A DNA stretch of 64,000 bases, from positions 17,954,761 through 18,018,760 of the forward strand of contig OY540818.1 of the NCBI GenBank assembly GCA_961205875.1. Reading direction: 5' to 3'. The DNA comes from Sialis fuliginosa. Its lineage: Eukaryota; Arthropoda; Insecta; Megaloptera; Sialidae. Below are positions 31,901 to 63,893 of the stretch, piece after piece (position 1 is the first letter of the stretch; the number at the start of each line of letters is the position of its first letter). The translations under genes and the position numbers were made by a program. The notes below the pieces were generated by a model. The model did no database searches and had not been told where the DNA came from. It saw only the letters and a program-made list of their open reading frames with translations.

Positions 31901-34900
31901 CCGTATTCCTGCAAGTATAAATGTGAATTAGAACAGAAAGCTAGTGTTTGAATTATTCCTTTGTAAAATAAAAACGATTATGAGTAGACAGTGGAAAAAA
32001 TACGTGAATTTAGGGAATTTTTATCTCAAAAACAATTATATATTAATAGATTTTAACTTTTACCTGTGGTATCACAATATCAGCTAAATATTTAGCGTAC
32101 ATATAAAGCTCTTCAGCTTGTTCAAACTGTAACGTATGTTGATTATGTTGAAGATCATATTTGATACAATCGTAAATATCTGGAATTTTACTTATATCAT
32201 ATTTCTTGTTTTTATTACAAAAATCTTTTTCTATTTTCCCCCATCTTCTTCCCATTAACTCCCACGTTTCTCCATGATAAAGTACAGCATCTAAAAATTA
32301 ATTTGTTATACGCGCATTTATAAAATTAATTATTCAATTTTATTTTTGTTGATTTTCTAATTTTGAACCTAATGCAGAGGTTCCCAAACTTTTTTCTCAC
32401 TGCACCCTCAGATGAACAGAAGTATTCCATGGTTCTGTTTATTAATCTATACTATATATTTTTGCCATAATAGTAACTGCTTGTAAATATAATTTATATA
32501 TTATTAATACATGAACATCAAAAATTGTCGTACGTTTTTTTATCATGTGTGTACAAATGTACATGTTGCCGTTAAGGCAGGTAAAATAAAGTTAACATAC
32601 ACACATCTCAGAACCTTGAAATTTGGTATATATATTCTCTGGGGTTTTTTAGAGGCCAACTAGTGGAATGATATTTTGATGTTTGCTTAATAAAAAAAAT
32701 TTGATTTAGATTGAAATTGTCAAAAAAGTAAAAATATATGAAAAAATAATAAAGTTAAAAAAAATTTCGAATTAATATTTTTTAGTAAAATTGTATAAAA
32801 ATTAAATGGTTAACCAATTTATCTGAATACTTTTCCGATTTTTATTTAAATTGTATTACCTTTGGTGAATTTAGTACAAGGAAGAAGCACTGTGCAATGT
32901 TTTTTAAAATCTTTCTTAATTAAATAATTATTTTGTTTTTCTTAAACTTACCTCTTGTTTTAGGATCGTCGCGTTTGCACCTAACGATATCCATTAAAGA
33001 ATGAATAAGAGAATGGACTTGACGGCAACATCTGGCTGGATTTTTTACAAAATCTAAAGCGGCGGCTATGCTTGATGCATTGCAAGGATTAATCGCTTTC
33101 TGTTCTTCTTCAGTGAAGTCTCTCTCTAATTGCATTAATTCGTGTAGTTTTGCTTTACACCTACGAAAAATAGTTATATTTCTTCGTTGAATTAAGAAAA
33201 ATTAAAATAAATAAAGTACAGTAGAGACTCTTTTTACGCGGATTTTGACGTAAATAACGTCTAGTTCACTTCAGGGTCATTCCATAAATAAAAAATTACT
33301 TTTCAGGTCAACCTCGAGGATTTTCATGAATTTGCAATATGTAATAAAGGCTTCTGTAAAAGGATATAATTAAATTTTTGAGCTAATTTTTTTTAATGCC
33401 AAATATCTAAAAAAACTGTGCATTTTACGCAAAATTATCAAGAGAGCTTTTTGATCGACAAAATACAGAATTAAATAAAAACTAGCTGGGCCCACGCGGC
33501 TTCGCCCGCTTGGACTACGGAATTATTATTTAGGATTTTTGAAAAATATACATAGTTGAATTAATTATTATCGTAATAATAACTAATCAAAACCTAACGT
33601 ACCTAAAAAAACAAACAAATCAGAACAAAAATTACAAATCATTTTTGTTCTGTTTAAATTTAAAAGTTAATAATTGAAAACAAAATAAACAACTGCCGGC
33701 CGAGCGCTGAATCGTCCCTCTCCCCGCGACACATCATCATAGTTCGCGCGAATTGCCGCGAATAATATGTTATTTTATGTATATTTCACGTTATTTCCTA
33801 AACCAAAAGACCAAATTGGATTCTGTAAAGGGCAAATTATATCTAAATTAAGTACTTATGACGATGAAATCATTTATTTTGATAAGGATTAATGTTTTGC
33901 AGGTCATAAGTCCACGTAAACAGAACCCAAATATTTTTAATTTTCTTTGTAACATAAAATCAGTCATTGTGGCTTAAATATAAAAGTTAGACATATGGTG
34001 TCGCGGACTTTATTGTAGAACTTTTGATTCTACACAATTCTTTAATACATTATTTTGTTCTATATTGAACGGTTTAGGCAGCGTATTACAAAACAGCGCG
34101 CCGACGGCAAATTTTTTTCCGACTTGATTTACTATTATCGTCACTGCTTAGTTGTTATGTTACCTAACGTAACAAAATATAGCCTATAACCTGGTCAGAG
34201 AATGTACCTATGAATTAAAAAAGAAACCACGTAAATCGGATAAGTGGTTCTCGAGTGATAAGGTAACTAACGGACAGACAGACAGACAGAGAGACGTTGA
34301 GCTTTATATATATTAAGGATATATGATTTATAAAAATAAAAACACGTGTAGGTACTCACATATTTTGATATTTGCTAGAATCACAGTCATTATCAAGTAG
34401 TCCATTAGTGTTGGCACTTTTAACCATTTGAACAAGAATGGGCGTTAACTCTCCTTCTAAAGCCAGAAGACCCTTGGCGAATGCGGCAGCCGTCATCTGC
34501 ACACGGCCCTCGTCAGACGCGTATATCTTCAAGTCGTGACGAAACGTTGAATGTAGACGCAGCAATCCAAGTCCTTGTGTACCTGCATATTCGCCTGTTA
34601 GCAAAGTTATATTATTGTAATAAGAATATTGTATCCAAGAATAAAAAAACACATTTCTTTAGAAGTAAGTATAATTCTTATTTACAATCATACAACAATG
34701 CAAAAATTCGTTTCACTTAAAATCTATTTACTATTATCATTATAAAGTATAAACTGAATTTATTAATTGTTCTATCTATTTAATAACTAGCTTAAAATAC
34801 TTTATATGTATTAGGATTTTTTTCGGTACTGCAGGCCTATGTTTTAGCTTTGGATCAAAAGTTAATTGTCCCAAAATTTCAGATTCATAGATCAAACCTG

Positions 34901-43900: not shown

Positions 43901-46900
43901 TGTAATAATATTACACGCTCCGACAAATATTTAATTATTTAAAAAATATAATTTCTGCGCGATATTTAAACTGTTGCAGAAATTTACATTACCCAGACAA
44001 AATGAATACAGCACATGTACTGACAATGAGATATATACAGAACTTACCTGAACACATACAATAATAACGTAAAAAACAAAACATAAACACTAGAGAACAT
44101 TATTGTAGCTGATTGAGCAGCCTACATAAAATATATAATGGTATTAATAAAATATTCGTACTACTGCGTGAGGGTTTACCGTCGTCGGAAGATGATCCAC
44201 GTGGCCTGCCCTTCGGTTGGTACTTCATTTGTACTTTGCGGTTTATTCCAGAAAAATGTCCATACCTAAATAAACGCAATTCATAGCAAAATTAATTTTC
44301 AAAATGCTAAAGTTGAATGGTGTATTACCATTTATTTTATATGTAGGTACTACCAGAGGCGGATTATCCATAAGGCAAACTAGGGCGCGAGGTTACAAAA
44401 GGGCACGCGCGCGAAATTTTTGAAAAATAACAAAAAAATAATTGTGTCAGTAAGTACCTATGTACCTACTTACACAATATAAAAAGATTCTTGTGTGCAC
44501 TAAAAGATGATGTGATAATTTTTAACAAACAAAATATAGACGCAACAATAAGAAAATATTTGAATTTTGAAAATTTCATTGTTATATTTAATAATAATTA
44601 TATGATGAGGTGCTTGCCTAGGGCGCTCTCGACATTTAATCCGCCTCTGGATACTACTGTGATCAAATATGAACGGAAATTTTCAATTTAAACGTTTAAA
44701 TTTAAAAGTTAATTGTTAAAAACAAAATAAACAACTGACGATCGAAACACAACGGCCGAGCTGAGCGAGTCCAAATGCCGGCCAAGCGCATGTGAATCTT
44801 TCCCTCTGCCCCGCTCAGACGCGGCATTTCTTCTTTAGTTCGTGCATTATTAATAATATTTAACTTATTTAAAGATATTTCCTAAACTATACGACCAAAT
44901 TGGACACTGTAAAGGGTAAATTATATCTACATTAAGTACTTATTTACAATAAAATTAAAATCACTTACATTTCCAAAACGCTTTTTAGTTGTTCAAGTTT
45001 ACCCTGTTTTTCTTCGATTTCCGGTAGTGCTTCATGTTGTGCTATTTCAGTCAAAAGAGATCGAGCGATATCTAGAATTTCTTGCAGCTGTTTCGGCTTT
45101 TTTAACTTTACATGTCCGTGCTTGTATCCATCATACTTTTCGAATATTTCAAAGAACCTAAAAACAATTACATTCGTATCGATTTCTGAATTAAAGTACA
45201 GTCGGGACTCGTTTATTGTAACGCTCGTTTATTTTTAGCTCTCGTTTATCGTAAATACCGACTTTCGTTTATTGTAATTTTTTTCTCCTCCTTCATCTCC
45301 CACCATTCTCGAGTCATGGCGTAAACGAACATATTTTTGAAATTTTTGTAGAATTAATTAGAGACACTTATCACCGTCGTCACTCGTCACCTTGCTCATA
45401 TTCGAAATTAAAAGTAAAGTAAAATTATTTCACTATCACGATTAACTATTAACGATAAATATTAAATACCAAGGTTTCCATACATAGTCTCTATAGCTCC
45501 TTGACCAATCAGCGTTGGCGCGGGATTTCAAGTCACCACGAAGACGTATTAAAATGTTTGACATCACAGAACGTATTGCCAACTTAAGAATAGTAAAAAT
45601 GACACTTCCCGAATAGACAAAATTGTCTGTGATAGCTTTTTCATGATTTTGCAATGTCGAATTTGTACTTCTTTGATTGTATATGTTGTTAAAATATCAA
45701 AAAATACGAAGACAAGAATAAATAAAGGATTTCTTGTATTTGATATTCTATTATACATGTATAACATTTGAATACATCTTCGTGGTGATGTCAATTCCCG
45801 CGCCAACGCTGATTGGTCAAGGATCTACACATAACTTGGTGGGAGCCCCTCTCGACTTGAAATAAACGCGAGTCATATGATTCAGAAGGTTTAAAATAAA
45901 TGAGTCCCGACTGTACATATTTGAATGGAGCCTACTTTGGATGTCGCACTTCGACTTTCATTTTCTGTTTTGGTGTTCTGTCGCCGTGTCGAATTACGGC
46001 TACAACGCACCGCAACTCCATCATCTTTCCAAACGTTGTCGGCACTATCGGTGGGTCATCTAACTGGAACGGAACACTCCAAGGGATATGTAATGTTGGC
46101 GCCAACTCACGTAGAATCATGTTTCCAAGAATTTTTGCCGAGTCGTCGTAATACTTATTTGAATTTTTAACAAAACTGAATCCGTTCACATCGCAAACAA
46201 ACGATTTTCCATTTGCTCTAAAATATTTAATTTCTTTTTAAATAAGGGAGCAAACACACACAAAATCTGAAAAATCTTAGGGTCTCGAGAAAAATTCAAA
46301 AATATTAAACACAATGGGGAATTTTCGATATTCACATAAAAATTTCTAATTCATATTTTTCTATTTTAATTAAACGTTATTTGTTTTCAAACCTTTATTA
46401 TTGAAAATAAAATAAAACCATCCGACAACATAATAGTTACAAAATTAAATTTGTTAAAATAACATTTTCGATTGTCCGACTGCCACGACGTTATCTATAT
46501 CTATATATGTACATATAATAACATGTCCTGACTGATTCAACATCGCCCAGCCGAAACCCCTGGTCCTAGAAACGTGAAATTTTAAGGGTGTCTTCCTTTT
46601 ATGACGTAACTACCCACTAAGAAAGGATTTTTCGATATTCAATCCCTAAGGGGGTAAAAAAGGGTGTAAAAGTTTGTATTGAAAAAATATTTTTTGGTCC
46701 TAGAAACGTGAAATTTTAAGGGTGTCTTCCTTTTATGACGTAACCACACACTAAGAAAGGATTTTTCGATAATCAACCCCTAAGGGGGTAAAGAAGGTGT
46801 AAAAGTTTGTATGGGAAAAATATTTTTTGGTCGGATTTACTTGAAACTTAAAATAAATACTCTTCAATACAAACAATGAAATACGTATTTCAGCATTTTC

Positions 46901-49900
46901 CAAAATTAAACCTTTAAATGGGGTAAGAGGGTGTAAAAGTTTGTATGGAAAAAATATTTTTTGGTCAGATTTACTTGAAACTTAAAATAAATACTCTTCA
47001 ATACAAACAATGAAACACGTATTCTAACATTTTCCAAAATTAAACACTTGAAGGGGGTTGCAAGGGGGTGAAAAAGTTTGTATGAGAAAAACATTTTTTT
47101 TTTGTATTCACTCGAATGAAACTAGGCACAGATACTTTTTTCGATGTTGTTATACTGTAGGTTATAACTATCTTGCATAGGAGCCGATATATTTACGTTT
47201 TTGTATAATCAATAAAAAACAAATAAAGGAAAAATTAAATATTTCAGCCCATGTCACGTATGGAGGGTTGTAATTAGTTTCGAAATCCACGCGAGCGAAG
47301 CCGCGGGTAGCAGCTAGTTTTGTATAGAACTTACCTCAAAAGATCAAAGCCGCAAACAGCTTGTTTAAATGCAAGGCACACTTTTCTCGATATAAGTTTT
47401 TCTGCGTTACTTAAAATTACTGGATATCTGATTTCTTTTCCTTCACTATCCCGTTCCACCTTTCCGTCTAAGGCAGGTGATTTTCTCGCTTCTGCATGAG
47501 CGTAATCTGGTCCAACAGTATAAACCTAAATAAAAAATTAAGTTTACAAATAAAAATGGGTGCGACTGTATCACAGTCAAGGGATTGACGTGAATACGTT
47601 CTAAATGTAAGGTCGCGTCGTTTGTGAAAGTGGGGTAAAATAAAACTCCTGATCCTGTCAGCTACTGATAGCTGCTGAGACGCTCTTTCCAATGCTATGC
47701 GTCTTTAATATTTCATGCTGGTTTTTGTGCGTGTTTCAGCTGATATTCTGATTTTTTTTTATTATATGAAGTTTCTCACTCGTTAAAACCGGTTAAATGT
47801 TTTTATTTGTACTTGTACCTCGTAGATCTTGCTAGCTGCTCTGAGTGTCGAGATATACACATTGTAAATTTACGCTAGCGCGCAAAATGATCGCAGCGCG
47901 TTTTGCCGCCCTCCGCCTGTACCGTATTTCCCGCAAGGGTGGCTCAATTTTTAATGGATACAGAACTATACACCGGTTAGAATGATACCAAAATCATCCC
48001 AGTCGAACTTTCAGTTTCTGAGTTATTCAATGGCACGAAACACTAGACGTTATTTTGCTTTTTGCTACATCACAAAAACAGTAAATTACCTACCTTTACG
48101 TCAGTTCCATCGGTCGGCATAAAATCTTCATAAATATAGCTACCAGTCTTGCGTACACGAGATTCAGGAGAATAAACACTACTGCGACTTCCGATCTAAA
48201 CAAAAAATTTCACAGTAACGATCAGTACAAACTTTATCGTATGATTAAACTTAGTGTTTGTACTTTTCTGAAAAGTCTCTGACTTCCTCCGCCGGCTGAC
48301 GTCGGATAATAGATGTAAATATTATGATCTTCAGCGCTTACAGGTTTCTCCACAAAAGGTTTATTAAAAACAACACCGTTTACTTCCACGTGATCTTCCG
48401 ATTCGACGAGTTCATGGTCTACAAATAAGTTTCATTTATTTCCTAGTACTGAAACTAAAAAGAACCCTTTCTTACGTTTCGGATCAGGCGAGTCGCGATC
48501 AAGAACGGCATACCGAGGAATTTGTATTCCTTCAGATTCTAAAATCGCGTAGACCCTTCTCCGATCTTGAATATCGTACTGCATATGCAGATTGTTTATA
48601 ACGTAAGGTTTATGTAACGCTGCATAAGATATAGCCTTATCTAATGGGAATCCTTTAGAATGAAACGATATCAAACAATCACAAACTGGCCATTCGTCCA
48701 CAGATTTCTAAAAGGTATTGTAGTAATTTTATTAATACGTTTGTGTTTTTTACGTTCGTAATAATTATATTGATTTTTACACTACTTGGTCCAAATGTTT
48801 CCATCTTGTGTAGCTTAAGGTAGTTCTCGTGCTACAGTAATACAGTCAGGCCCGGATTTAGAAATTTGCTGCCCCTAGGCAGTTACGAAAATTGCCCCCC
48901 CCCCCTCGAAACTAACAGTTTAATAAAACTCAGGACCTTTTTTTTTTTTCGTCGCGTCGGTTTCAAATTTTATAAATTTTTATAAAGTTACATTAGGAAA
49001 CACTGAAAGACCTTCTTTTTTTTAGTCCTGCTTGAGTTACATGTGTAGAGAAATGATTGCTTATGGGTTGAAATTTTTACGTCTCGATTTTCGAATGGCA
49101 AACTCATCGATAATGGAATCAAAATCAAATTCAATTCCTACGAATATAACAAGTTTTCAAAGTTAAGTTACGGGACCGTAAATTCTAAGAATTAGAAGAT
49201 ACAGGGTACCCCCCCCCCCCCTTCCATCACAATACCGATCTAATGAAATGAGACGGGAATAGCTTTTTTTCCCTCACTCGCACACTTTGCTCAGAGCTAT
49301 CATGCAACATAACCCACGTGAATGATACTCTGGTGGTAAAATTGAAAAGTTATATGACAGTTCATCATTCAGAAAAAGATTTGAGTTTTATTTGAATACT
49401 AATGCTAGTATTTGATTACATATTGTTTTTTTTTTCGTCTGTTTAATAACGTTGTACGTATATTTCTATTTATATAATTGTGAAACCATTTTAATCAGTG
49501 GCGAGGCGTAAAATTTTTAAAGGGCAAGTATATTTTATCAATCCTCCCCGTCCTATTAACAAAAAAAACTAGTTATGAAACAGCTTTAAATGATTCTACG
49601 TCTTATTTTCTTGTATTTTAGTCGATATTTGTATGACGAGTTGAAGTTCACTGCAGGAAATTTCACTAAAAAATTTAGAATTTTTGATTTTGTTAAAAGT
49701 ATGTTAATTGTATAGAAAATGACGTGAAAAGTTGTTTGGTTCAAACCGCAGGTCTGTATCTCAAATCGTTCTCGAGATATAGCCTTTCAAAGTTTTAGAT
49801 TTTTCAAATTTTTGGAGAAAAAAGGCCATAACTTTTGAACAAGTGGTCGGAATTGATTTTAGTTGACGGATTTGGAATCAGCGTGTCAAAATCTATATAA

Positions 49901-52900
49901 TGACATGTATAATACTTTAAAATCCGACAAAAAAATTTTCGTCAAAAATCGACATTTTTTTAAGGTATACCCCTTTGAATTTTTTCGATTTTTCGCGAAA
50001 TTTTTTTTTTCGAGTTTTAAGATATTATACATGTCATTATATAGATTTTGACACGCTGATTCCAAATCCGTCAACTAAAATCAATTCCGACCACGCGTTC
50101 AAAAGTTATGGCCTTTTTTCTCCAAAAATTTGAAAAATCTAAAACTTTGAAAGGCTATATCTCGAGAACGATTTGAGATACAGACCTGCGGTTTGAACCA
50201 AACAACTTTTCACGTCATTTTCTATACAATTAACATACTTTTAACAAAATCAAAAATTCAAAATTTTTTAGTGAAATTTCCTACATTGAACTTCAACTCG
50301 TCATACAAATATCGACTAAAATACAAGAAAATAAGAAATAAAACTTTGATGACAGTTATCTTAAGTTTAAAACAGTCGATCTCTTTAAAATTTCACATTT
50401 CGATAGATATCATTGTTCTTTTTATTCCCTGAAGTTTTTTTTTAAATTCTATCGAAATGATATTTGCATGAGAACTACCTTAATGCAGTCAAATTTCATT
50501 AAACTTACAATTAAAATAACCAAAATACTCAGAATCAGGGCTTCGAACCGTTATTTTTTTCGTTTCGGTTTACGTTCCGGTTCGAGTAAAAAAATATATT
50601 TCGGTTCGATTCCGGTTTTAGGTCCGAAAAAAAACGGTTCAGCTTCGAGTGATTAATTTAAAAAAAATTATTTGTATTAAAAAAAATTTTTCTATCATAA
50701 TTTAGAACATTTTATGGTACTTGTATGATAGTCCGAACGACAATTGAAATGGGAAATAAGATCATGTTAACACGCGTATTTTAACATATACCTACAGAAC
50801 CGTAAAAACCGATATTTTTATTTCGGTTCTGTTCTGGTTTTCGTTCCAGCAAAAAATAACGCTTTTTCCGGTTTCCGGTCCAAAGCCTTGCTCAGAATGG
50901 TAAAAACTTTATAATACGTAGTTTGCTAACTTTTTTTTATCTTTAAGAAACCTATTTATAAAAATTTTAAAAAAATATTAAAAGATTAAATTCAGAATAT
51001 TGTATATCAAAAATAATAACAGTCAAAGTAAACAACTTTTGTGCTTACAAATGGGGGCTGACGGCACGTAACTGTCCAAATCTGAACTAAAAACGAACCC
51101 TAAATTATTAAAAATTTAATAATACATTTATATTTAGTTTCGTAAAGTTTGACTGCACAAAAAAAATGTTAAAAACAATTTTTTGAAAAAGGTGTTAATA
51201 AAGATTATAAAATAAAACCTTTAATATTACTTCCTCAGGAAAAACAGTCATTTTAATGAACTCAAATTCTTGTAAACGTGTGAGTATCTCCTTCATCGGT
51301 TTACTCTGCGACTTTTTCGCCATGGCACAGATTCCGACCACCACTTGTTTAGAGTAGCTGCCGGTAGAGGCATCACTGTCGGTACCTGTCCCTGTCTCAC
51401 AAGATCCTGTACCTGCCCGATCATCTTCTCCACAAAGTTCTAAATCACCCTGAATCAAAAACAAAATACAAAATGTACATTTATTTATCGTTTAATTTTT
51501 TTCTCGGTCCTATTAGCCTATGGCATAGGCAGGGCCGGATTAAGAAAGCGCGGGGCCCGTAGCAAATGTTATAAAGAGGCCCTTGGCATTGGCGTCGGGG
51601 GGGGTGAAACTCTAGGTATCAACGATTGAAAAAAAAAATTTTTTTAGTCGTGTTACTCATTTTTTATTTCCCTATTTTTATTTTATAAAAATTTATAAAA
51701 AATATTTATAACAAATATTTTTCCAGAAAGTCGCGGGGGCCCCCAAGGACGCGGGGCCCGTAGCATTTGCTACTCCTGCTACGTTGTTAGTCCGGCCCTG
51801 GGCATAGGTGTCCAACCTTTTGAACTTTCTGGGCCGCATAGCATAAACTCAATTTACTAAGCGCCGCACGCTAGAATAAAAACTGAGGACCTTTTTTTTT
51901 TTTTTTAGTCGTGCTAATTTCAATGCAAGTTTATTATTATCATAATTTTTTTTTTTAATTTGGGGGCCGCGGATTGGACAAGCTTGGCCTATGGGATCTA
52001 AAGAAAATTCTCGCAAAATTTCAGACTCGTAGACCAAACCTGTGAACGGCGCATTACCATTTAATTAACATGGGAAAAATTACTTTTTTACTTATGTTTA
52101 TCGAAAAAAAATTTTATGTATCACAGCAACATTTTGTAGAGAATTAAATTTCTTACAAAAAGATCCCGAGTTCTCAATTTATAGACCCAGTATATTTAAA
52201 GATATGTTCGTTTAAACTAGGGCTTCGAACCGTTATTTTTTTCGTTTCGGTTCGAGTAAAAAAAATCCGGTTTTCGGTCCAAAAAAATAACGGTTTTTCC
52301 GTTTTTTGGTTCAGCTTCGAGTGATTAATTAAAAAAAAATTATTTATATAAAATTTTTTTTTCTACCATAGTTTAGAACATTTTAATGTAAATTAATTAA
52401 ATGGTATTAAGACTGTTCACTGGTTCGATCTACAAGTTTGAAAATTTGGGAGAATTTTCTTTAGATTCAAAGTTAAAATATAGATCATTGGAACCGAGAA
52501 AAAAAGTTTAAATTTTTTTTAAAAACATCCTAATATTTATGGTGACCATATATTACGAGACTGCAAGGTTTCTATTCTGTTTAAAAATGAAATGAATTTC
52601 TTATTTAACGGATATATCCCCAAAATTTTCCATTTTTAGGGTGTGTAAAAAAAAACGTTTTTTTCCTCGCTTTCATTATAAAATATGGTAGTTTATAACC
52701 CAAAATAAATCCCCCCACAATTAAATTTTAAGAGGTGCCACAAGGGGGGTCTTGTTTCCCATTTAAACAAAACGTAAAAATTATTCTTTAGTACTAAAGT
52801 TGGTATAACTGATTCAGGATAACTGTTGAAAAATTTTTAAGGTCATCATTTTGTAGAAGATATAATTCTTTACAAAAGTGTCTACAAAGTCATAGCCGTC

Positions 52901-55900
52901 AATTCAACGTATCAAAAGTTACAGACATTCAAAATATGGTCACCATATCAATTATAAAAACATATTTATTATTTGAAATCAGTTTTAATTTAAATAAGCG
53001 AATTCCGAATCTGAAAATTGAGTTGTATATATTTGACCATATCGTTAATGATTCTATCTGTTTCTGGGTATAAAACATACATTAAAAGAAAATTAAAATC
53101 ATTCAATACATAAAAAAAGATAATCAAATTTATCTTACACCCAGAATCCAAGAATATATCATATTTAAATCAGACAAAACATGAAATGACCACTTAAATT
53201 TCTAACAATAATAGTCCTCGGTCCCGACTTTAAATTTTAAAATTAAAACTTCGTGAGTGGATTCATTTTGGCGTAACCTACAACTTTTTTATCTTCGAAA
53301 ATTCTGAGAATTGGGGCGTTTTTGATATGGCATGCGTCAAACATGTTTAGGGCGTAGATCAGGGCAAAATACCCTTGATTTTTGTAGGCCAGTATTACCT
53401 TAACATTTTACTATTATTTATCTAGCAATTGTGCAAAAATCAGCTGGTTATTTATAAATTACATAACATCATGAATTTGACATGTTGAGGGTGTAGATCT
53501 CGCTAAATGCCCCAAAAATTTTGTAGGTTAATATATTTCCCGATGTTTGCATTATAAAATCTTGTAATTCAAGTAAAAAAGAAAGGGTTATTCGTAAATT
53601 TTTTATAACATCAAAAACGCCCCAATTCTCAGAATTTTCGAAGATAAAAAGAGTATTTTTTTATTTCAAAATTTAAAGTCGTGCATGTTAAATATTTATA
53701 AAACTCACGATAAATTAAAAGTTCACGTAAATAATTAATAACAATCATTACCAGGGATGACAGATAACACTGAATACAGCTATTGTGGTCAAACAAAGAG
53801 CACATGCATGTCATATCCATTACGAAACAAAAATATTATTTCCAAACATAAAAAGCAATAATATAATTCAGAATAACAATTATATATTCACCTGAAAACA
53901 AAACATGGTAGAATTAAAACCATCACAGAAGAATTAAAATTACTAAAGGTCAAAGTATTAACTTTTATCATGAATATTAGACAGCTTTATCCATTATTAA
54001 TGTTGTTATAAAAAGTGTGATATACATTCTATTTTTATGTGTAGAAAATTATTATTTATTAAGAGGTTAGGTCTAGTCAGATTTTTCAAAAAATCGATTT
54101 TTTTTTGCATTTTCTTGAAGTATAATATTTTGAAAATGTTCTGTGTTGTTCCAATGTATAGTTTTAGAGATAAGGTATTGGATATGACCCCAGTAATGGG
54201 CTATTTTTAAAATTAAATGTACTGAATCAGAATATTTGTTGATATTTGATTACTACCATTTCTGAATATTAATCTATACACATTTAACGCTTTGTAGGTA
54301 AATACCAACGGTATTAAAACAGTGGTGATATTATGAAAATTATTTTGTACAGTGAAAGATGCCAACTGTGTTACAATTAGTTGAAGTGTCACTGCTCTAA
54401 ATTCCATAACTAATCCATAGATACTAGTACAGAATTAATACCCCATTTGAAAGTAATTGCAAGCTAGCAAATTTTGCTAGCTCCTTTATAATACCGGACA
54501 TTAGTGTAAGATCTGTTACTAAATCTTTAAACACGTTTTTCTCGAAACCACCTTTTTTTGGTTGGTAGGAAGCAGAACTGAAATTCTAATCAACCGATCG
54601 GGCTTTAATTTTAACACGTTGTTCTATACACTAATAGTTATCGTATTACCTCAAATTATTTATTTTCATAAATAATTTTTTTTTCGAAAAAAAAAAACAC
54701 GATTTTTGCAATTTTTTTAAATATATATATATTTTTTTCAATTCATTACAACCACTTTTTTTTCGAGGAGTCCAATTTGACTCCAAAAAACAAAAAGTAT
54801 TATCAAATTTACTACAAGAATTTTTTTTGTATAATTTAAAATGCAAATAAAAACATAAAAAGACTGAAAAGTTATATTTTATTTTTTTACGAAAAAAATC
54901 CTGAAATAAGCCTAAAATTTTAGACGTCACACCGCAATTCAAGGTATTTGTAAATCAAAGAATACTTGTACTTGTTAAAATGTCTTCTCATTCCTCATAT
55001 CTTCCCCTACAAGTCAAAATATTGCAAGCGACATTTTTTGCAAAATTATGGTGGTTACGATAATCTGCCATTGATTCTGAAAATCTCGTAAACAACAAAG
55101 TTCTCTTTTCCGCTAAAAAATCGTACCCACCATTGTTTTTTAAAGTATCGTAACCACCAGACAAAGTAATATAAGCACCGATATCTGCTTTACAAAATAT
55201 CGTAACCAACTATGACATTGTATCGTAATGGCACTTAAGATATTTTAAAATAACGTACCTGTTAATTGTGAATTCTATTATTGCTTGTTTATTTAATAAA
55301 TCCAAATTTTGTACATATATGTATATGAAAGAATGAAAAGGTGTTTAAGGTACAGTGTATTATAAAATATCTTAAAAGCATCTTATGCACCAATGACCAC
55401 TGAAATTGGGAGTTATAAAATATCTTAAGCGCACCATCATTGTTTTCCAATTCATCTAAAAAACGGTTAAGTCAAATGTATCAAAGTACATATTATTAAA
55501 ATTAGAAAAATGTCGCTTACGCTTTTTTACTTTGTAGAGAAGATATTAAAATACATTAACACATTAACTGCCTTCTTTATGTTACCTACAATGCCATAAG
55601 CGCAGTGTTTCTTTGAACATTTCTATCAGAAATATTTCCGGTAGTTAAAATTTACACTGCTATTTGGCAGTTAACGTGTTAATTCAGAATAGATCTAGAT
55701 CTGAACATTCTAAATAAACAATCTTCTACTGTATGTTAAAAAATTAGAAAAATGAACAAAGACGAGCAAAGAAAATGTTAAAAAATCATGTGTATATCAA
55801 TAAAATTATTTTTGCAATAACAATTGAAATAATTATTTCTACGTACACCTAAACACTCGTCACAGTAACAACACTCATTATCATTTTCGCTGATATTTTT

Positions 55901-57773
55901 ATTTCTTCTCCATTTCTTTAAACGCCACCAATTTTTTAACCAAGACCACTCCATCTCCGCTAAAGTATTTTTCAAAACAAATATTTGAAGATATTTAATT
56001 TAAGCAACATGTGATTTAAACATAAACATAACAAGATTAGATTATTTAACAAGTGTTTCAATGCCATTTAATTATCATTAATTTTTATTACAAATTATGA
56101 TACCTGTGTTTTTAAAATATACAGGGTGGGGCATTTAAAGTAATTTTTATCTTAGAACCTTTGCATATTCGAAAAAAATGTTTGGTTGTGAGGGAGTAAT
56201 CTAATAGTAATATTTATTTGATATTTTAACGTGGCTTTAAAGGTTATTTGAAGGTCAACATCATTTTTTTAAATAGGAACATACGGTTTTTATTTAATAA
56301 TATTATTCTACGAGAAAAAACACGAATCTTTCATTGAAAACTTTTTTTTTGAACAACCTAAACTTTCCAATAAAATTTATTTTGGTCTAATAAAAGTTGG
56401 AGGATTATTTTTAGAATTTTAAAGTAAAAAATTCTTGAATTTTCAAAATCTCGAAATTATTTTGTAAGATATCTTGTAAAGTTTAGATTGTTTGTTCAAA
56501 AAAAAGTTTTCAATGAAAGATTCATGATTTGTCACGTAGAATAAAATTACTGATTAAAAACTATAGGTTCCTATTTAAAAAATGTTGACCTTTAAATATC
56601 CTTGAAAGCCAAGAAAAATAAAAAACAAATATTATTATTCGATTACCCCCTCGTAACCAAACATTTTTTCCAAATATGCGATGGTTCTGAGATAAAAATC
56701 TGTAACACTTTAAATGCCCCACCCTGTATTAATCACACATTTTAAAATACTAAATGAAAATAAAAAATAAATTTTAAATGTAACGGAAACATTAATTTGA
56801 AAATAATTTTTAAAAAAATGTTTGCCATAAACTTATGTATATTTATAATTTATAACACCTTTTATATTTAAAATTGGAAAACATAATTTAATTAAGTTAC
56901 ATTATTTATTTTTGAGATGCATTTTAATACAATGCAATAATGATACATTATTTTTGTATATAAAATGTTTTGTTTACAAATAACACAGTTATCACCAAGA
57001 AGTACAGTCACTTTGTGAATTTCAAGGTCTTTGTATCTATTATTTGTACTTAGTTTTTTAATTACCTTAGTTCATGTTGCATGAATTATTTTAAAACTGA
57101 ACCGTATAATTTCCTCTACGTTTAGTTTGGAATATATTTGCAATTGAAGCAAATCATTATAAAAAAATTAGTTAATTTTATTGTTTTCTTATTAAAAATT
57201 GTTACGTGACATAAAATAAAAATAAGTTAGAGGATTTTTTTATGTACTTAATAGGTATTAATAAATTCAGCTATAAAATATCAATAATAACTTGTGGCAT
57301 AATTATATCAATTATAAGTCAATGTACTATTAACATTGAAGAGAAATTAGTTGAAGGGTATTTATTTTTAAATATACATATAATAATGTTAACATTTTTC
57401 ATAAATTTCTAGAAGTATGTATGTAAGTTTATTTTTTAAATTTCTTTATTATAAAATATAATATAATTACTTATTTTTATTATGTGCCAAAAATTAAATA
57501 TTGAAAACATAAACATTTACAAGTGCGTAAATATGTACATTTTGCAAAAAAAACATAATATACTTCAATATAAATGAAAAAAAAAATGATTAAGCACAAT
57601 TTTCTACAGAAAAAAACACATATGTTGCTATAAGAATATGATAAAAGAAAATACTTTTCGTATAAATGTTTGAAACTTACAGCAATGTCGTCTGGTAAAT
57701 AAAAATGTGCAGCAGGACCTACGACAGCTTTACGTAAGCCTTGGTAACCGTGCTCCAACTCGGTGTATGACAT
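22944..57773 (-). CDS. PPIP5K: Diphosphoinositol pentakisphosphate kinase/phosphatase PPIP5K (Vip1)
   Basis: Makes 1-position inositol pyrophosphates (1-InsP7, InsP8) with an N-terminal ATP-grasp kinase and removes them with a histidine-acid-phosphatase-like domain; cytosolic. Minus-strand exons from the 5' end: 57681-57773, 51219-51449, 48476-48707, 48264-48418, 48094-48195, 47335-47525, 45936-46217, 44969-45157, 44180-44265, 41761-41907, 34360-34594, 32952-33160, 32064-32290, 31657-31908, 31077-31334, 30459-30593, 30279-30376, 29900-30102, 26612-27976, 26170-26349, 24874-25006, 24605-24744, 22944-24427 (TAA). Phases agree throughout; about 2,208 residues. Kinase about 67-400: [73 protein letters not shown]. 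Phosphatase from [10 protein letters not shown] (about 411-420), with [31 protein letters not shown] and [12 protein letters not shown]. Then a conserved FSPG segment, poly[28 protein letters not shown] and SSSGPSSP. The disordered tail (about 965-2,208) is far longer than in human PPIP5K1 or 2. Confidence 0.93.
25306..25553. mobile_element. MITE, GGTTATTTATCGTTTTAG family, copy 1
   Basis: Left arm GGTTAAATATCGTTTTATTT and AGTGCTCCAAATTATTTCAT; right arm is the inverse (TTTGGAGCACTAAAACGATA, AATAACC). A second copy at 59703-59953 has the same arms. Here it lies in the PPIP5K intron between the exons at 24874-25006 and 26170-26349. Confidence 0.7.
27977..29899 (-). other. PPIP5K intron, 1.9 kb, mostly featureless
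   Basis: AT-rich intron. The only repeat I recognise is a lone unit (28578-28645) matching the 134-bp tandem array at 46562-47100: both share AATACAAACAATGAAACACG and TATTTCAGCATTT. Nothing else seen. Confidence 0.6.
30150..30205 (+). repeat. Dispersed repeat shared with 4.84 kb
   Basis: Starts AATCCGGAAATTTTTGACAT and matches 4842-4895. It lies about 50 bp upstream (PPIP5K sense) of the acceptor of the exon at 29900-30102. Confidence 0.55.
32372..32897. repeat. hAT-like terminus and dispersed repeat in a PPIP5K intron
   Basis: GCAGAGGTTCCCAAACTTTT at 32372 is a terminus typical of hAT-derived MITEs (CAGNGGTTCCCAAACT). I could not find a matching inverse end. At 32864-32897, on the minus strand, lies a diverged copy of the 28-bp repeat of 8437-8464. 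Confidence 0.45.
33234..33300 (+). repeat. pogo/Tigger-like terminal fragment
   Basis: TACAGTAGAGACTCTTTTTA followed by CGCGGATTTTGACGTAAATAACGTCTAG resembles a pogo-type end. Part of it (GACGT.AATAACGTCTAG) recurs at 60748-60767 in a hexosaminidase intron. No opposite end seen. Confidence 0.4.
33484..34318 (+). mobile_element. Interspersed retroelement-like repeat, GCGGCTTCGCCCGC head
   Basis: Begins ACTAGCTGGGCCCACGCGGC then TTCGCCCGC and ends with a GACAGACAGACAGAGAG run and TTTATATATATTAAGGATAT. Copies or fragments: 44690-44942 (+), 62400-62868 (-), and an end fragment at 61558-61612 (-). The core shares CCAAATTGGA..CTGTAAAGGG.AAATTATATC. Head and tail types recur in arthropod genomes, but I cannot assign a class. 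No intact reading frame. Confidence 0.6.
34817..35347. mobile_element. Foldback element with GGCCTATGTTTT ends
   Basis: Left arm (34817-34985: TTTTTTTCGGTACTGCAGGC, GATTAACATGGGAAAAATTA, CGCGTGAATATCTCGTTGAA) is mirrored at 35215-35347. Non-coding. A related copy at 51985-52510 is interrupted by another MITE. In the 7.2-kb PPIP5K intron. Confidence 0.75.
35608..35780. mobile_element. hAT-like MITE with 8-bp target duplication
   Basis: Ends ..TTGGCGTAGTAAG and CTTACGCCACTGG are inverse; flanked on both sides by TTTAAGAC (35600-35607 and 35781-35788), an 8-bp duplication as in the hAT superfamily. Interior contains G-runs and C-runs. Non-coding. Confidence 0.75.
36622..37376. mobile_element. 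Foldback element, arms about 150 bp
   Basis: TTAATCTTTTATTTACATTA at the left is mirrored at the right end (AATGTAAAAGATTAA). Inner mirrored blocks: CTTGACCATTCTTAAATAAA and GCAATAGGCATGATG / CATCATGCCTATTGC. The centre carries GACGTCA-type motifs and TCATGGCG. Non-coding, within the 7.2-kb PPIP5K intron. Confidence 0.75.
37449..37748. mobile_element. MITE, CAGTGGCGTAG family
   Basis: CAGTGGCGTAGAAAGC at left, inverse CTACGCCACTG at right, about 300 bp. G-run after the left end and C-run before the right end, as in the copies at 35.6 and 63.0 kb. Confidence 0.7.
38153..38687. mobile_element. Foldback element, TCTCGGAAACTATAAGAGAT arms
   Basis: Arms mirror over about 150 bp: TCTCGGAAACTATAAGAGAT, AGAGATTCGGTTAAATGAGA, ATGTCATAGC and TAGATATTAGCCAAAAACCA, each with its inverse on the right. 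A fragment of the terminal part is at 10183-10230. Confidence 0.75.
38938..39006 (+). repeat. Short tandem array, GTAGATCTTT units
   Basis: About six imperfect copies of a roughly 11-13 bp unit (TTTGTAGATC / ATTGTAGATC / TCGTTGTAGATC). Micro- to minisatellite. Confidence 0.7.
39165..39740 (+). repeat. Tandem repeat, about 162-bp unit, 3.5 copies
   Basis: The landmark TTTCGGAAAAATTCCCG recurs with unit starts near 39182, 39345, 39506 and 39670, spaced 161-164 bp. Other shared blocks: TTTTGACTACGTATTCTTAA, TCAGCGACCCC and AACCTCCCCAGAT. Units 2 and 3 are closest to one another. Satellite-like array in the 7.2-kb PPIP5K intron. Not CRISPR-like: no spacers. Confidence 0.85.
40385..40412 (+). repeat. 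Dispersed 28-bp repeat, copy 2
   Basis: GCACGGTGCTTCCTCGTGCT and the following AAATTCAC match 8437-8464 with one or two differences. Confidence 0.5.
40855..41600. mobile_element. Outer foldback element carrying a nested MITE
   Basis: The left block (GGTCAAATATCTCGAAAACA, then AAATGTTTCTGAAATAAATGTTTCGAACC) is mirrored near 41542-41595 (GGTTCGAAACATTTATCTCG, GAAATATTTGACC). A second complete foldback (41195-41498) sits between the arms. Confidence 0.6.
41195..41498. mobile_element. pogo-like MITE, CAGGTAAACGTCG termini (nested)
   Basis: CAGGTAAACGTCGTTTTGCG and CCGG at the left; the inverse (CCGGCGTAAAACGACGTTTA, CCTG) then TA at the right. About 300 bp. CAGG..-type ends with TA at the edge fit Tc1/pogo-derived MITEs. 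Lies inside the outer foldback 40855-41600. Confidence 0.7.
41967..42632. mobile_element. Element with 24-bp perfect terminal inverted repeats
   Basis: AGTGTATTCCAAGTTGATTA (then AG) near 41969 and its inverse (CTTAATCAACTTGGAATACA, CT) near 42607-42629. Sub-terminal blocks (GATTGGTGCATTTTGAAATG / inverse near 42517) are also mirrored. The interior includes the GIY-YIG-like fragment described separately. In the PPIP5K intron between the exons at 41761 and 44180. Confidence 0.7.
42120..42242 (+). pseudogene. Decayed GIY-YIG endonuclease fragment, Penelope-like
   Basis: A 40-codon open stretch ending in TAA reads [20 protein letters not shown] then [10 protein letters not shown] and onward. 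This matches the GIY-YIG nuclease core of Penelope-like retroelements, where a Cys pair precedes SY(I/V)GQT and is followed by R..R..EH. The arrangement C-x2-C-x2-SYIGQTRRS..RFKEH is characteristic. There is no reverse transcriptase next to it; the downstream sequence is non-coding. It lies inside the inverted-repeat element 41967-42632, so the fragment was captured or is a solo remnant. Family knowledge, no search run. Confidence 0.6.
42755..43035. repeat. Diverged inverse copy of the 16.9-kb element
   Basis: GATAGGGTTTCATAGTC near the left and AAATATATCGTGACTGAAGA, GTTAAAATCAAAAGA inside match the inverse of 17080-17257. Termini decayed. Confidence 0.55.
44354..44649. mobile_element. hAT-like MITE, CAGAGGCGGATTA termini
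   Basis: CAGAGGCGGATTATCC at left, inverse TTTAATCCGCCTCTG at right, about 296 bp. Flanked by GGTACTAC (44346-44353) and GATACTAC (44650-44657), an 8-bp target duplication with one change. No coding capacity. Confidence 0.75.
44690..44942 (+). mobile_element. Fragment of the 33.5-kb retroelement-like repeat
   Basis: Matches 33650-33870: TTAAATTTAAAAGTTAAT, AAACAAAATAAACAACTG, then a GC-rich core with CCGGCC and CCCTCT, then ACGACCAAATTGGACACTGT and AAATTATATCTACATTAAG. It ends about 25 bp from the donor of the PPIP5K exon at 44969-45157. Confidence 0.65.
45197..45915. mobile_element. pogo/Tigger-like element filling a PPIP5K intron
   Basis: TACAGTCGGGACTCGTTTAT at left and its inverse (ATAAATGAGTCCCGACTGTA) at right. 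TA is at both edges, as expected for TA-target elements with CAGT ends. Within it is a second mirrored pair (CCTTGACCAATCAGCGTTGG at 45491 and its inverse ending near 45826; GACTTGAAATCCCGCGCC type). The intron 45158-45935 is 778 bp, so the element makes up about 92% of it. No transposase frame. Confidence 0.75.
46490..47317 (-). mobile_element. Retroelement-like repeat with internal 134-bp tandem array
   Basis: On the minus strand its head reads ACTAGCTGCTACCCGCGGCT then TCGCTCGCG, the same type of head as the 33.5-kb repeat. Inside, 46562-47100 is a tandem array: unit starts at 46562, 46696, 46829 and 46963 (133-134 bp), each containing GTGTAAAAGTTTGTAT and a TTTTTGGTC block. Units 1-2 and 3-4 form two closely matched pairs. 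No open frame of length. Confidence 0.7.
49601..50334. repeat. Near-perfect 730-bp palindrome
   Basis: Left arm about 49601-49962 and right arm about 49975-50334 are inverse copies with few differences (for example GTATAATACTTTAAAATCCG against its partner, and AACAAGTGGTCGG against GAACGCGTGGTCGG). The short spacer is T/A-rich. The arms carry no gene; the two 62-codon frames they create on opposite strands are mirror images. Lies in a PPIP5K intron, so the pre-mRNA can form a hairpin with a stem of about 350 bp. Confidence 0.9.
50536..50890. mobile_element. hAT-like MITE, CAGGGCTTCGAACCG, intact target duplication
   Basis: Starts CAGGGCTTCGAACCGTTATT, ends ..CCAAAGCCTTG, and is flanked on both sides by a perfect CTCAGAAT (50528-50535 and 50891-50898). 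355 bp, no coding capacity. Related pieces at 10222-10319 and 52218-52385. Confidence 0.8.
51530..51800. mobile_element. hAT-like MITE, CAGGGCCGGATTAAG, intact target duplication
   Basis: CAGGGCCGGATTAAGAAAGC at left and inverse TTAGTCCGGCCCTG at right. Perfect 8-bp duplication GGCATAGG at 51522-51529 and 51801-51808. Inner GCGGGGCCCGTAGCA blocks are also mirrored. It inserted into an older element (next entry). Confidence 0.85.
51801..51992. mobile_element. Older element interrupted by the 51.5-kb MITE
   Basis: GTGTCCAACCTTTTGAAC ... GGATTGGACAAGCTTGGCC. The interior (GCATAAACTCAATTT, then GAGGACC plus a T-run and TTAGTCGTGCTAATTTCAAT) matches 63140-63250. So the same sequence occurs in a PPIP5K intron and a hexosaminidase intron. 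Confidence 0.5.
51985..52510. mobile_element. Foldback copy of the 34.8-kb family, interrupted
   Basis: GGATCTAAAGAAAATTCTCG, ATTAACATGGGAAAAATTAC and GTTCGTTTAAAC match 34860-35130. The right arm resumes at about 52400 (TGGTTCGATCTACAAGTTTG, AGTTAAAATATAGATC). Between them, 52218-52385 is a piece of the AGGGCTTCGAACCG MITE family. Confidence 0.6.
52538..52948. mobile_element. MITE with TATGGTGACCATAT termini
   Basis: TATGGTGACCATATATTACG at left and AATATGGTCACCATATC at right; the termini are themselves palindromic. About 410 bp, non-coding. Confidence 0.65.
53226..53688. mobile_element. Foldback element, arms about 110 bp
   Basis: Mirrored blocks: GACTTTAAATTTTAAAATTA, TTTTTATCTTCGAAAATTCT and GAGAATTGGGGCGTTTTTGA. 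Its right end lies 64 bp from candidate first exon C (53752-53820). Confidence 0.7.
53752..53820 (-). CDS. Candidate alternative first coding exon of PPIP5K (C)
   Basis: ATG followed by 23 codons ([20 protein letters not shown], then SSL) and a GTAATG donor, ending in phase 0. That is the phase needed to join the exon at 51219-51449. Cys-rich, like the candidate at 55847. It sits just upstream of a foldback element, and the frame is short, so chance is a real alternative. Confidence 0.2.
54180..54505 (-). repeat. Inverse copies of the 21.5-kb and 22.0-kb modules, order swapped
   Basis: 54180-54300 matches the inverse of 21520-21640. 54440-54505 (CAAGCTAGCAAATTTTGCTA, GGAG then TATAATACCGGACATTA) matches the inverse of 22010-22075. 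Read on the minus strand, the second module comes first, unlike the other locus. Confidence 0.65.
55223..55437. mobile_element. Small foldback with CTTAAGATATTTTA arms
   Basis: GGCACTTAAGATATTTTAAA at left and TATAAAATATCTTAAGCGCA at right. Just left of it, 55000-55220 contains several ATCGTAACCACCA-type repeats. Confidence 0.45.
55557..55682. mobile_element. TTAA-flanked MITE, piggyBac-like
   Basis: 126 bp from TTAACACATTAACTGCC to its inverse GGCAGTTAACGTGTTAA. TTAA ends and a 17-bp inverted repeat fit a piggyBac-derived MITE. In the first PPIP5K intron. Confidence 0.65.
55847..55954 (-). CDS. Candidate alternative first coding exon of PPIP5K (B)
   Basis: ATG followed by 36 codons and a strong GTACGT donor, ending in phase 0, so it can join the exon at 51219-51449 just as the 57.7-kb exon does. 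It reads [20 protein letters not shown], then an acidic/Asn spacer, then CCYCDECLG. The Trp/Lys/Arg-rich amphipathic start and the Cys cluster look like a selected sequence and suggest a membrane-associating or lipid-modified N-terminus. Splicing from the 57.7-kb exon into it does not keep phase at the obvious AG, so it is better read as a separate first exon from its own promoter. Confidence 0.45.
56120..56728. mobile_element. MITE with TACAGGGTGGGGCATTTAAA termini
   Basis: TACAGGGTGGGGCATTTAAA at left and TTTAAATGCCCCACCCTGTA at right, a perfect 20-bp inverted repeat. The arms stay mirrored for more than 200 bp (ACCAAACATTTTTT, GAAGGTCAACAT, GTTCAAAAAAAAG). 609 bp, non-coding. Confidence 0.85.
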
Positions 57774-58800: not shown

Positions 58801-59362
58801 ATGCCAAGTGAAATATCTGTTTCACCAGTTCTCCATTTCACTAAATTATCTGAACATGCAAGTGCTCCAACAAGGGGCTCATCAAAAGCTGCTGGATATG
58901 ATTTATATTCAGCCTACCAGTGTACTGTACCTGCTCGAGGAAAAGAAATCGTAGCAACCGATATTCAAATTCAGTTACCTGAAGGATGTTATGGGAGAAT
59001 TGCACCTAGATCTGGTCTTGCAGCAAAAAATGCAATTGACGTAGGAGGTAAATATAAGTACATCAAAATCTTACAAAGTTACAAATTCTCATTATGTTTT
59101 TAGCTGGCGTTGTTGATGAAGATTACCGCGGAAATATTAAAGTTGTATTGTTTAATCATTCCGATGTGCCATTTGTAGTTAACAAAGGTGATCGTATTGC
59201 CCAACTCGTTTGTGAGAAGATTTATTACCCAGAAATTAAAGAAGTACAGGTAATGTGTATTTATTTGTTTTTTAATTCAAATCATAAAATCTTATATTTT
59301 TTTAGAGTCTGACTGAAACTGAAAGAGGTGAAGGTGGTTTCGGATCAACAGGAACCCAATAA
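58801..59362 (+). CDS. dUTPase: dUTPase (deoxyuridine 5'-triphosphate nucleotidohydrolase)
   Basis: Trimeric enzyme that hydrolyses dUTP to dUMP and pyrophosphate, keeping uracil out of DNA and feeding dTMP synthesis. Three exons: 58801-59047, 59104-59249 and 59306-59362 (TAA), 149 residues, the usual single-domain length. All five motifs are present in order: AAGYDLYSA (about 30-38), PRSGLAAKN (69-77), [10 protein letters not shown] with the catalytic Asp (83-92), GDRIAQLV (111-118) and the Arg/Gly P-loop-like [10 protein letters not shown] (138-147). The C-terminal motif closes the active site and is intact. No mitochondrial leader is visible in this frame. It diverges from PPIP5K; a poly(A) signal AATAAA is at 59440. 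Confidence 0.97.
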
Positions 59363-60136: not shown

Positions 60137-63100
60137 CTAATCTTTATAGCAGTATCCTTGATTCTGAAGACACCATTGAGGTTCTAGTGTATCAGCAGCA
60201 ATATTACGTTCAACCATACGGTCTCGTTGAATTAACATGCGGTGTTCAGCTGCTTTCCAGGTTGTACTAGGTTCTGCCCACAGTCTTTCAGCCATTGCGG
60301 CTGTGCGTGGCCAAACACGATTATCTAATGATTGGTCATCAGCCTAACAAAAGAAAACACAATTAAAATACAAAAAGTTACATGATCAGTCTGGCATCTC
60401 TACACAAACTTTTACACCTGTGTAAACATACTCTATAGAAAGTATTATATTCTTATAATACCTGTTCAGTCCATAAAGCTGCTTCGGCACCTAGCATTTG
60501 TTTAGTTCTATTTCCAGCAACAAGAGCAGGACTATTATCGTAAACTTTCTGCCAGCCAATGTAAGGGGAACACCAGTTATTACCAGTTCCAACCCAAGCA
60601 CCAAATCCGCAATCTAAATAAAGAGCATCGTAGTTTGACAATATCAATCTGTAGTCACGTTCTAATAGGTCTTTAATTTGTTTATCTTGTCCGGTTGTCC
60701 ATATCTAGAAATTTAAACCATTTGATAATAATAATCTCTTTATTTTGACGTGAATAACGTCTAGTGTTTCAGGCCAGAATTCGAAGAAGGTTTAAGATTT
60801 ACAAATACCTGAATGATGTATTTATCTTTAGGTAGATATTGTTCAACGTATTCAGTCTTAGTCAATGTACTAGTCCACATAATGATTGGTGTGTCTTTTC
60901 GTTTAGATTTTTTGTTGTAGCGTTCAAGAGCTTTACTTTGGAAATGGTCCCATAATTTCATGAAACCTGCTTCGGTTTGTGGCCAGCCTTTTTCGTTCAT
61001 CCATTGTACAATGTTATTAGTCCTTGCCCAACAAGTTGTTGAAACCTACAGACAGAAAATATTAACAATGAAACTGAATTTATGCCTCTTATACTATACT
61101 ATAAATTATTTAAATAATAATAAACAATACCTCATCTCCACCCATATGGAAAATATCTGGATCGAAGAGATCTACAATATCACCGTACAGATCTTCTAGC
61201 ACATCGTAAACTCCTTCTTTAGTAGGATCTAACTGACCGCATGGAGGTTCTACGCAAGTTTCAAACCAGGGTTCAGCTTTGAAACAAGCAACATAATCTG
61301 TACCTTGCCAACCCTCACCTACGTGAGCAGGTGCATCAAACTCTGGTAAAACACGAACTCCTCGGATTTTTGCGTATTGTATAACCTATTAAATAAGTTA
61401 ATGAAAAATAGGCGAAACTTTAGTTTAGCAAGTACACACAGATTTTATAGTTTTGTATGTTGGTAATAACTTACTTGAAATACATAATATGATTTATGTC
61501 AGTGATTGAAAGATCCTCAAACAGTGGAATAGCTAAATATTACAACATTCAAGTTCTTGATAATCCTTAATATATATAAAGTTCAACGTCTCTCTGTCTG
61601 TCACCCAAATCATATATTACCAACAAACAAAACTATGAAATCTGTTTGTACATGCTAAACTAAAATTTCATTAAAAAATATTAAAACATTTATTCAGTTT
61701 CATAGAATATTTTTATATTGAACTAGTGTGAATTATGAATATTTATTGTAACGCTATCTATTATATGTAAATAATTGTAAAACAAATTATAATCTTACGT
61801 CTTTTATATCTTCTGGAGTGTATACTTTGTAACGATTATAAGCACCAAATTTAGCCATATCTGGTCTAGATGGAGCGACAAAAGGGAAACTTTGTGAATC
61901 AGTCATGTGCCAATGGAAGGTGTTCATTTTATTCATAGCTAAACCATCGATTGTTCTTTTAACACTTTCAACTGAAACATAATTTCGGGAGGTATCTAAA
62001 AGAAAGCCACGGTATGGGTAGACGGGTTCATCTTCGATTTGGACGTCTCTTACTGCCTAAAAATTAAATTATTATTTGAATATATATACTTATACTTATC
62101 AACGCTGAGTTTGCTGTTACTCAATTTTTTAACTACAGATTGAGGGGGCGTCCTGTTAATATTTCAATTTGTACAATTGACTTACTTGTAGTTCTTCTCG
62201 AATATCGTCAAATATGAAAAGCTGACTTAAAGTTTCTAAGCCGTGTCTAGCACCGAAAAAATTTGGAGCTCGGATTGTCGCTAAAAGACGACCATCACTA
62301 CTTTCGTTCATAGTAAGGCTATATTTCTCAGAGGTTTCTAAAGTTAAATCTGAAATATAAATATAAAATATTGAACAAAATAATGTAGTAAATAATTGCG
62401 TAGAATCAAAAGATCTAAAATAAAGTCCGCGATACCGTATTTCTAACTTTTATATTTAAGCCACAATGACTGCTTTTATGACCTGCAAAACGTTAATCCT
62501 TATCGAAATAAATGATTTCGTCGTCATATGTACTTAATGTAGATATAATTTGTCCTTTACAGCATCCAATTTGGTCTTTTAGTTTAGGAAATAACTTTAA
62601 ATAAGTTATATATGGTAAAATATTATAAATAACGCGCGAACTGAAGAACAACTGCCGCGTCGGAGCATCTCGGCCGCCATTCGGGCTCCCTCGGCTCGGC
62701 CGTTGTGTTTTGATCGTCAATTGTTTATTTTATTTTCAATAATTAACTTTTAAATTTAAACAGAACAAAAATTATTTGTACTTTTTGTTCTGATTCGTTT
62801 TTGTTAGGTAATTTATGTGTTGATATTTTTCAAAAATCCTAAACAATAATTCAGGGCAGCTAGTAATATTATAAAGTATACGTTATTTTTTATAATATAT
62901 TGTTTACATACCCAGATTTTGAGGATCATCCATTATTACAGTAACCATTAGAGTTCTACCACCAGGTTTTATGTTTGCTTTCTTGGGGATTACTGAATGT
63001 ACATGGTCTTTAAATCGCTGCAATGTTAATTAAATTAATCCAGTGGCGTAGTAAGAAAAATTTTCGGGGGGGGGGGGTAAGTTTGGGCGGTTGGGGGTTA

Positions 63101-63696
63101 AGTTTATAGAAGGGCGCCAAATGGCCCTTAACCTTTTAAACCGCATGGCATAAACCCAATTTATAAAAAGCTAAAGGCGAGAATATTATGCAACTGAAGA
63201 CCTTTTTTTTTTTTTAGTCACGCTAATTTCAATTCACGTTTATTATAAAATTATTATTATTTTTTTATTTTCTTATTTTTGGGGGCGCCAAAAAGATATC
63301 GTACCCCGGGCGCCAATTATGCTTGCTACGCCACTGGCTTGCGGCCCTTACTAAGTTGAGTTTATGCCTATGGTCTAAACAAGGTATTTCAGTGTTTTTA
63401 AAGTCGGTTTTATTTATTTTTGATAGTGATAAATATGTTAAATTACTTTAGCTGCTTCACGAATCAACTGCGCTGCCGGTGTGTCCGATGGTTCTGCCAG
63501 AACATCAATACTGTTGTAGTTAACGTGGAGTAGGAAGTTACCTAGGCTGACTTTGCCTGTAGGACGAGGCCATAGATTGGCGTTCGGGTTACAGAACATG
63601 CGACAGGCCGGGAGACTTAGCGCAGAATCAACGTCATCCTTTGTCATTGGCATTTTGTTGCACAAGCTTTCGTGACATTCCCATCGCCATCCCAAG
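60137..63696 (-). CDS. NAG1: Chitooligosaccharidolytic beta-N-acetylglucosaminidase, GH20 (5' partial)
   Basis: Secreted exo-hydrolase that releases GlcNAc from chitin oligomers during cuticle turnover. Eight exons on the minus strand: 63447-63696, 62912-63017, 62186-62349, 61799-62056, 61131-61385, 60809-61045, 60462-60704 and 60137-60343 (TAG), phases consistent, 573 residues. The first visible exon begins inside a codon, so the signal peptide lies right of the window. Order: Cys-rich WRWECHESLC region, GH20b-like domain (ending GARHGLETLSQL), then the barrel: YRGFLLDTSRNY, NTFHWHMTDSQSFPF, LPEFDAPAHVGEGW, FHMGGDEVSTTCW with the catalytic Asp-Glu pair split by an intron right after GGDE, IIMWTS, YIIQIWTTG, YDALYLDCGFGAWVG, NNWCSPYIGWQKVYDN, LGAEAALWTEQ, RVWPRTAAMAERLW and QWCLQNQGYC. 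It resembles OfHex1 (group I) more than Fused lobes or lysosomal-type HEX. Confidence 0.93.
62400..62868 (-). mobile_element. Inverse copy of the 33.5-kb retroelement-like repeat
   Basis: In a hexosaminidase intron. On the minus strand it starts near CTAGCTGCCCTGAATTATTG and includes TTAAATTTAAAAGTTAATTA, a GC-rich core with CGGCCGAGCC, GACCAAATTGGATGCTGTAA and TTATTTCGATAAGGATTAA, matching 33500-34000. It ends internally, so the copy is truncated. Confidence 0.65.
63041..63337. mobile_element. MITE, CAGTGGCGTAG family
   Basis: CAGTGGCGTAGTAAGAAAAA with a G-run at left; inverse GCTTGCTACGCCACTG at right. Interior shares a block with 51840-51930. In the hexosaminidase intron between 63017 and 63447. 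Confidence 0.7.
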
Positions 63697-63893
63697 CTAA
63701 AAATAATCATTTTAATATGATTTATTTAAGGGGTCTGCCTAAGCATAGGGTGATTTTCAATATTGCTTCCTCGCAATATCGAAGATACGAGAAGCATTGT
63801 GATCGTTTCAGATTGAGATAAAAAAAATGTTGTCCGATTTCAAAATTTTAAATTGATTTATCCGTTTCACGTCAAGATAAACACTTTTCGTTC

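Follow-up and report, generated by a model that had tools for sequence, protein, structure and literature searches.

A probable alternative first coding exon beside the ordinary one in a single-copy PPIP5K gene of Sialis fuliginosa

Human PPIP5K2 carries a nuclear signal, and for the PPIP5K enzymes it is an open question where cells make inositol pyrophosphates. Human PPIP5K1 is described as moving to the plasma membrane upon PtdInsP3 synthesis (PMC4063336, PMC4472268). Among calcium-channel proteins, beta2a and beta2e are described as membrane-anchored N-terminal variants that arise from alternative first exons (PMC9307272). PPIP5K is one of four genes of the insect Nasonia listed as rhythmic and, in addition, as differing in methylation with photoperiod, and the passages on this gene in that report say nothing about first exons (PMC11610487). 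Judged by their titles, none of the papers among the matches listed in our literature search dealt with N-terminal variants of insect PPIP5K, and a search of the literature for the strings MEWSW, CCYCDEC and two strings from exon 1 gave matches to MEWSW only, with no PPIP5K paper by title.

The DNA analysed here (the window) is a stretch of 64,000 nucleotides from Sialis fuliginosa, and positions are counted from its first letter. The common second coding exon of the gene under study matches PF18086 (PPIP5K2_N; E 3.2e-13), in agreement with the sequence-only reading, which had taken this exon to encode the start of the kinase, and it also matches human PPIP5K2 kinase structures (E 4.3e-12). 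A second PF18086 match lies in the exon at 48435-48707 (E 1.8e-21), and an approximate human PPIP5K2 probe gave 13 collinear matches running from 51.35 to 31.1 kb, each with E 2.7e-7 or better. The C-terminal histidine phosphatase is represented by PF00328 (His_Phos_2) matches at 45935-46237 (E 3.4e-8) and 31615-31977 (E 3.4e-13), so that kinase is followed by histidine phosphatase, the order seen in human PPIP5K1 and PPIP5K2 (PPIP5K/Vip1 family). When the 392-Mb genome was searched with the kinase-start exon and with that at 45935-46237, each was found in one place. Because of these domain, structure and probe matches and the one genomic place for each of the two exons, the locus is identified as a PPIP5K gene and, judged on those exons, as single-copy.

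Further along the same gene, the exon end at 41768 (minus strand) apparently uses a GC donor, AAG/GCAGGC, a by-eye reading made because GGQG has to join EYAG of the next exon. Downstream of the phosphatase exons lie two long open frames on the minus strand, of 492 codons (26577-28052) and 495 codons (22947-24431), which gave no Pfam match and which perhaps encode a long C-terminal tail of PPIP5K. Elsewhere in the window are a family 20 glycosyl hydrolase (GH20) gene at 60140-63725 on the minus strand (PF00728 in 61113-61385) and a ubiquitin-conjugating enzyme gene at 4616-5817, also on the minus strand (PF00179 in 5566-5817).

The sequence-only reading had proposed three first coding exons for this gene, each opening with ATG, ending at a good GT donor in phase 0 and able to join the common exon, and the coordinates of all three frames proved exact (Table 1). 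Its description of the donors as good stands best for exon 1. Exon borders were read by eye and the donor-strength matrix is an approximate one; against 19 donors of the window, which were likewise read by eye from PPIP5K and its GH20 neighbour with one GC donor omitted, the donor of exon 1 beats 12 and those of exons 2 and 3 each beat 7, which for exon 2 still makes a usable donor. A matrix trained on the same 19 donors scores the three at 3.48, 1.78 and -1.19, respectively. The proposal of three alternative first exons divides in a similar way: exon 1 is supported, exon 2 is plausible by its amino-acid make-up and exon 3 lies at chance level. The reading that we prefer, to which we give about an even chance as a whole, is that this single-copy PPIP5K gene has one ordinary first exon and a probable alternative one, exon 2, with exon 3 a product of chance.

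Table 1. Positions of the candidate first exons, the common exon and the intronic inverted repeats in the window
Feature	Positions	Strand	Description
Exon 1	57681-57773	-	93 nt, 31 residues, ATG, phase 0, donor GCT/gtaagt
Exon 2	55847-55954	-	108 nt, 36 residues, ATG, phase 0, donor GGT/gtacgt
Exon 3	53752-53820	-	69 nt, 23 residues, ATG, phase 0, donor CTG/gtaatg
Common second coding exon	51219-51449	-	Acidic linker and kinase start; phase 0 after gattcag
Inverted-repeat element	56143-56699		Intron, upstream of exon 2; arms 85 nt, 85% complementary
Inverted-repeat element	55007-55537		Intron, downstream of exon 2; arms 32 nt, 78% complementary

Two measures of coding character were applied to the candidates. 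The codon score was trained on 7782 bases of the window in 26 pieces, a set that includes 26577-27950 and 22947-24431, which were taken as coding though without a Pfam match; on calibration, the median was 8.7 for left-out coding pieces of 36 codons, 4 of 60 of which scored 0.2 or less, and -8.9 for open intron pieces. The composition background comprised 444 frames that open with ATG and are 36 codons or longer, drawn from 20 stretches of the genome, with which exons of 31, 36 and 23 codons were compared. On this scale exon 1 stands well apart, with a codon score of 11.8 that only 10 of the 444 background frames reach and an amino-acid surprisal reached by 12. Its G+C content is 0.46, against 0.216 directly downstream (57680-55955). 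We regard exon 1 as very probably the real, ordinary first coding exon of PPIP5K. Its likeness to the human PPIP5K1 N-terminus used for comparison is at most a weak AHFYL/AHFFL match, which 94 of 2000 shuffles equal.

A dUTPase gene with two exons at 58801-59312 on the plus strand (PF00692, E 8.3e-21 and 3.6e-17) lies about 1 kb from exon 1, head to head with PPIP5K. Given this arrangement, a promoter near exon 1 fits, and it is possible that the two genes share one.

The main competitor of the preferred reading is that exon 1 alone is real, the other two being frames that arose by chance in the long AT-rich intron and happen to end at phase-0 GT sites; we regard its probability as appreciable but short of even. 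It draws on how often such frames arise. In the 20 genome stretches (400 kb over both strands, with genes left in), 53 donors of such strength close a phase-0 frame that opens with ATG and runs for 20 codons or more, which corresponds to 0.83 per 6231 nt, the length of the interval between exon 1 and the common exon; for frames of at least 36 codons and the same donor criterion the figures are 28 and 0.44. The interval itself holds two such donors ending frames of at least 20 codons, namely those of exons 2 and 3. The other noncoding parts of the window gave 8 donors, or 0.71 per interval, in a control that contains genes, one of the 8 frames being a dUTPase exon. Markov shuffles of the interval (400 per order) yielded a mean of 0.55 to 0.71 frames; 11.5 to 16% of the shuffles held at least two, and 14 to 19% held a frame of 36 codons or longer. 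With about 0.8 frames per interval expected by chance, the number and the phase of the candidates therefore carry no evidence. The codon scores are of the same tenor: that of exon 2, a weak 0.7, is reached by 98 of the 444 background frames and by 10% of open intron pieces, and that of exon 3, -4.6, by 170 of the 444. The codon surprisal of exon 2 is likewise reached by 141 background frames. In favour of exon 2, only 0.25 to 1% of the shuffles of the interval (400 per order) held a frame that was 36 codons or longer and also reached its codon score.

What speaks against chance in the case of exon 2 is its composition. The predicted N-terminus has a basic, Trp-rich start followed by a cluster of four cysteines, CCYCDEC, and its amino-acid surprisal is equalled by just 3 of the 444 background frames. 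None of these frames has four Trp in 20 residues, 3 have four Cys in seven and none has both, density tests that were picked post hoc with exon 2 already seen, so that the surprisal rank is the fairer test. The same two features are absent from the candidates at the 53 background donors, and the Trp and Cys densities of exon 2 were never reached in Markov shuffles (1000 at each of three orders). When open stretches of 20 codons or more were scanned in the six frames of the window, exon 2 shared its four Trp in 20 residues with one other place, at 55186, and its four Cys in seven with a Cys run at 29998 (plus strand). On balance this make-up tips the case modestly toward exon 2 being a real first exon, and the CCxCxxC spacing makes its cysteines candidates that are possibly palmitoylated or metal-binding.

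The description of the exon 2 start as amphipathic did not hold. The best helical hydrophobic moment is 0.23, a value that 3480 of 5000 shuffled versions of residues 1-20 match or exceed, and an amphipathic-helix anchor was rejected. We also rejected the idea that exon 2 or exon 3 encodes an N-terminus of the human type; neither has any likeness to the human PPIP5K N-termini used for comparison, with 458 to 1611 of 2000 shuffles aligning as well. A search of viral and prokaryote contig collections found no relative; being collections of viruses and prokaryotes, they are therefore silent on animals.

An origin of exons 2 and 3 from repeats was rejected, since the DNA around each has a single place in the whole genome and both lie outside the repeat blocks found by comparison with the 20 stretches and the rest of the window. 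Exon 2 is flanked within the intron by two inverted-repeat elements (Table 1), for which no further copy was found in the 20 stretches and the rest of the window. Closer to the common exon, an inverted repeat at 53286-53650 has perfect 41-nt arms, lies within a repeated block (53212-53654) and looks young, and repetition within the intron peaks at 54157-54620, a block with a depth of 9 in the 20 stretches and the rest of the window. Two points count against exon 2 as a first exon: five ATGs occur within the 150 nt upstream of it, and its frame continues open beyond the donor.

Two further explanations fare worse. That each of the three exons is a genuine alternative first exon is very improbable, and the matter turns on exon 3. 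All of them fit in phase 0, and a pyrimidine-rich acceptor-like site stands 71 nt upstream of the exon 3 ATG, but the interval contains 15 acceptor-like sites, counting the true one. The sequence-only reading had credited exon 3 with five Cys in its 23 residues; there are four, at positions 5, 7, 15 and 18. Of 1000 shuffles at each order, no more than 2 to 5 contain a candidate with four Cys in 23 residues, and one candidate at the 53 background donors has them, yet so do 17 of the 444 background frames. The amino-acid surprisal of exon 3 is reached by 62 of the 444, and together with its negative codon and donor scores and the chance-level number of frames this bears out the earlier ranking of exon 3 as the weakest of the three. 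Chance is the most likely origin of this frame, and we consider it very improbable that it is a real first exon. Least probable of all is that the frame at 55954 is not a first exon of PPIP5K and constitutes an independent small ORF (58 codons) or belongs to some other transcript in the intron: it does reach its stop only 22 codons beyond the donor, with two additional Cys on the way, and an AG five bases before the ATG makes an internal exon conceivable as well, but the codon score drops beyond the donor (to -6.7 and -5.5 in 10-codon windows), the pyrimidine tract before the AG is poor (50%) and exon 1 joined there is shifted in frame and runs into a stop.

Under the preferred reading of one ordinary and one probable alternative first exon, the ordinary transcript would start upstream of 57773 and connect exon 1 with the common exon at its 51449 end. 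A second promoter, putatively located within the long first intron, would give rise to a transcript with exon 2 first, its transcription and splicing being predicted in the same way, and the same enzyme would thereby gain a different N-terminus, in which the basic Trp-rich stretch precedes the four-Cys cluster. This part could hold the kinase at a membrane through charge, Trp insertion and perhaps acylation of the cysteines. The full chain, in which an intronic promoter yields a PPIP5K with the exon 2 N-terminus and thus a constitutively membrane-fixed synthesis of inositol pyrophosphates that dispenses with the PtdInsP3 signal reported for human PPIP5K1, is a speculative extension that we think unlikely. 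If true, a choice of N-terminus encoded in the gene would offer a simple means of directing one kinase to different sites. Should exon 2 turn out to be unused, the locus would instead illustrate how easily frames of matching phase arise in AT-rich introns, here about 0.8 per 6 kb.

The arrangement proposed for Sialis resembles that described for beta2a and beta2e, where one protein body carries different short N-termini, some of them membrane-holding, the PPIP5K case being a prediction from sequence. The human PPIP5Ks, as far as the cited descriptions go, are controlled in their location by other means, namely a movement driven by PtdInsP3 and a nuclear signal.
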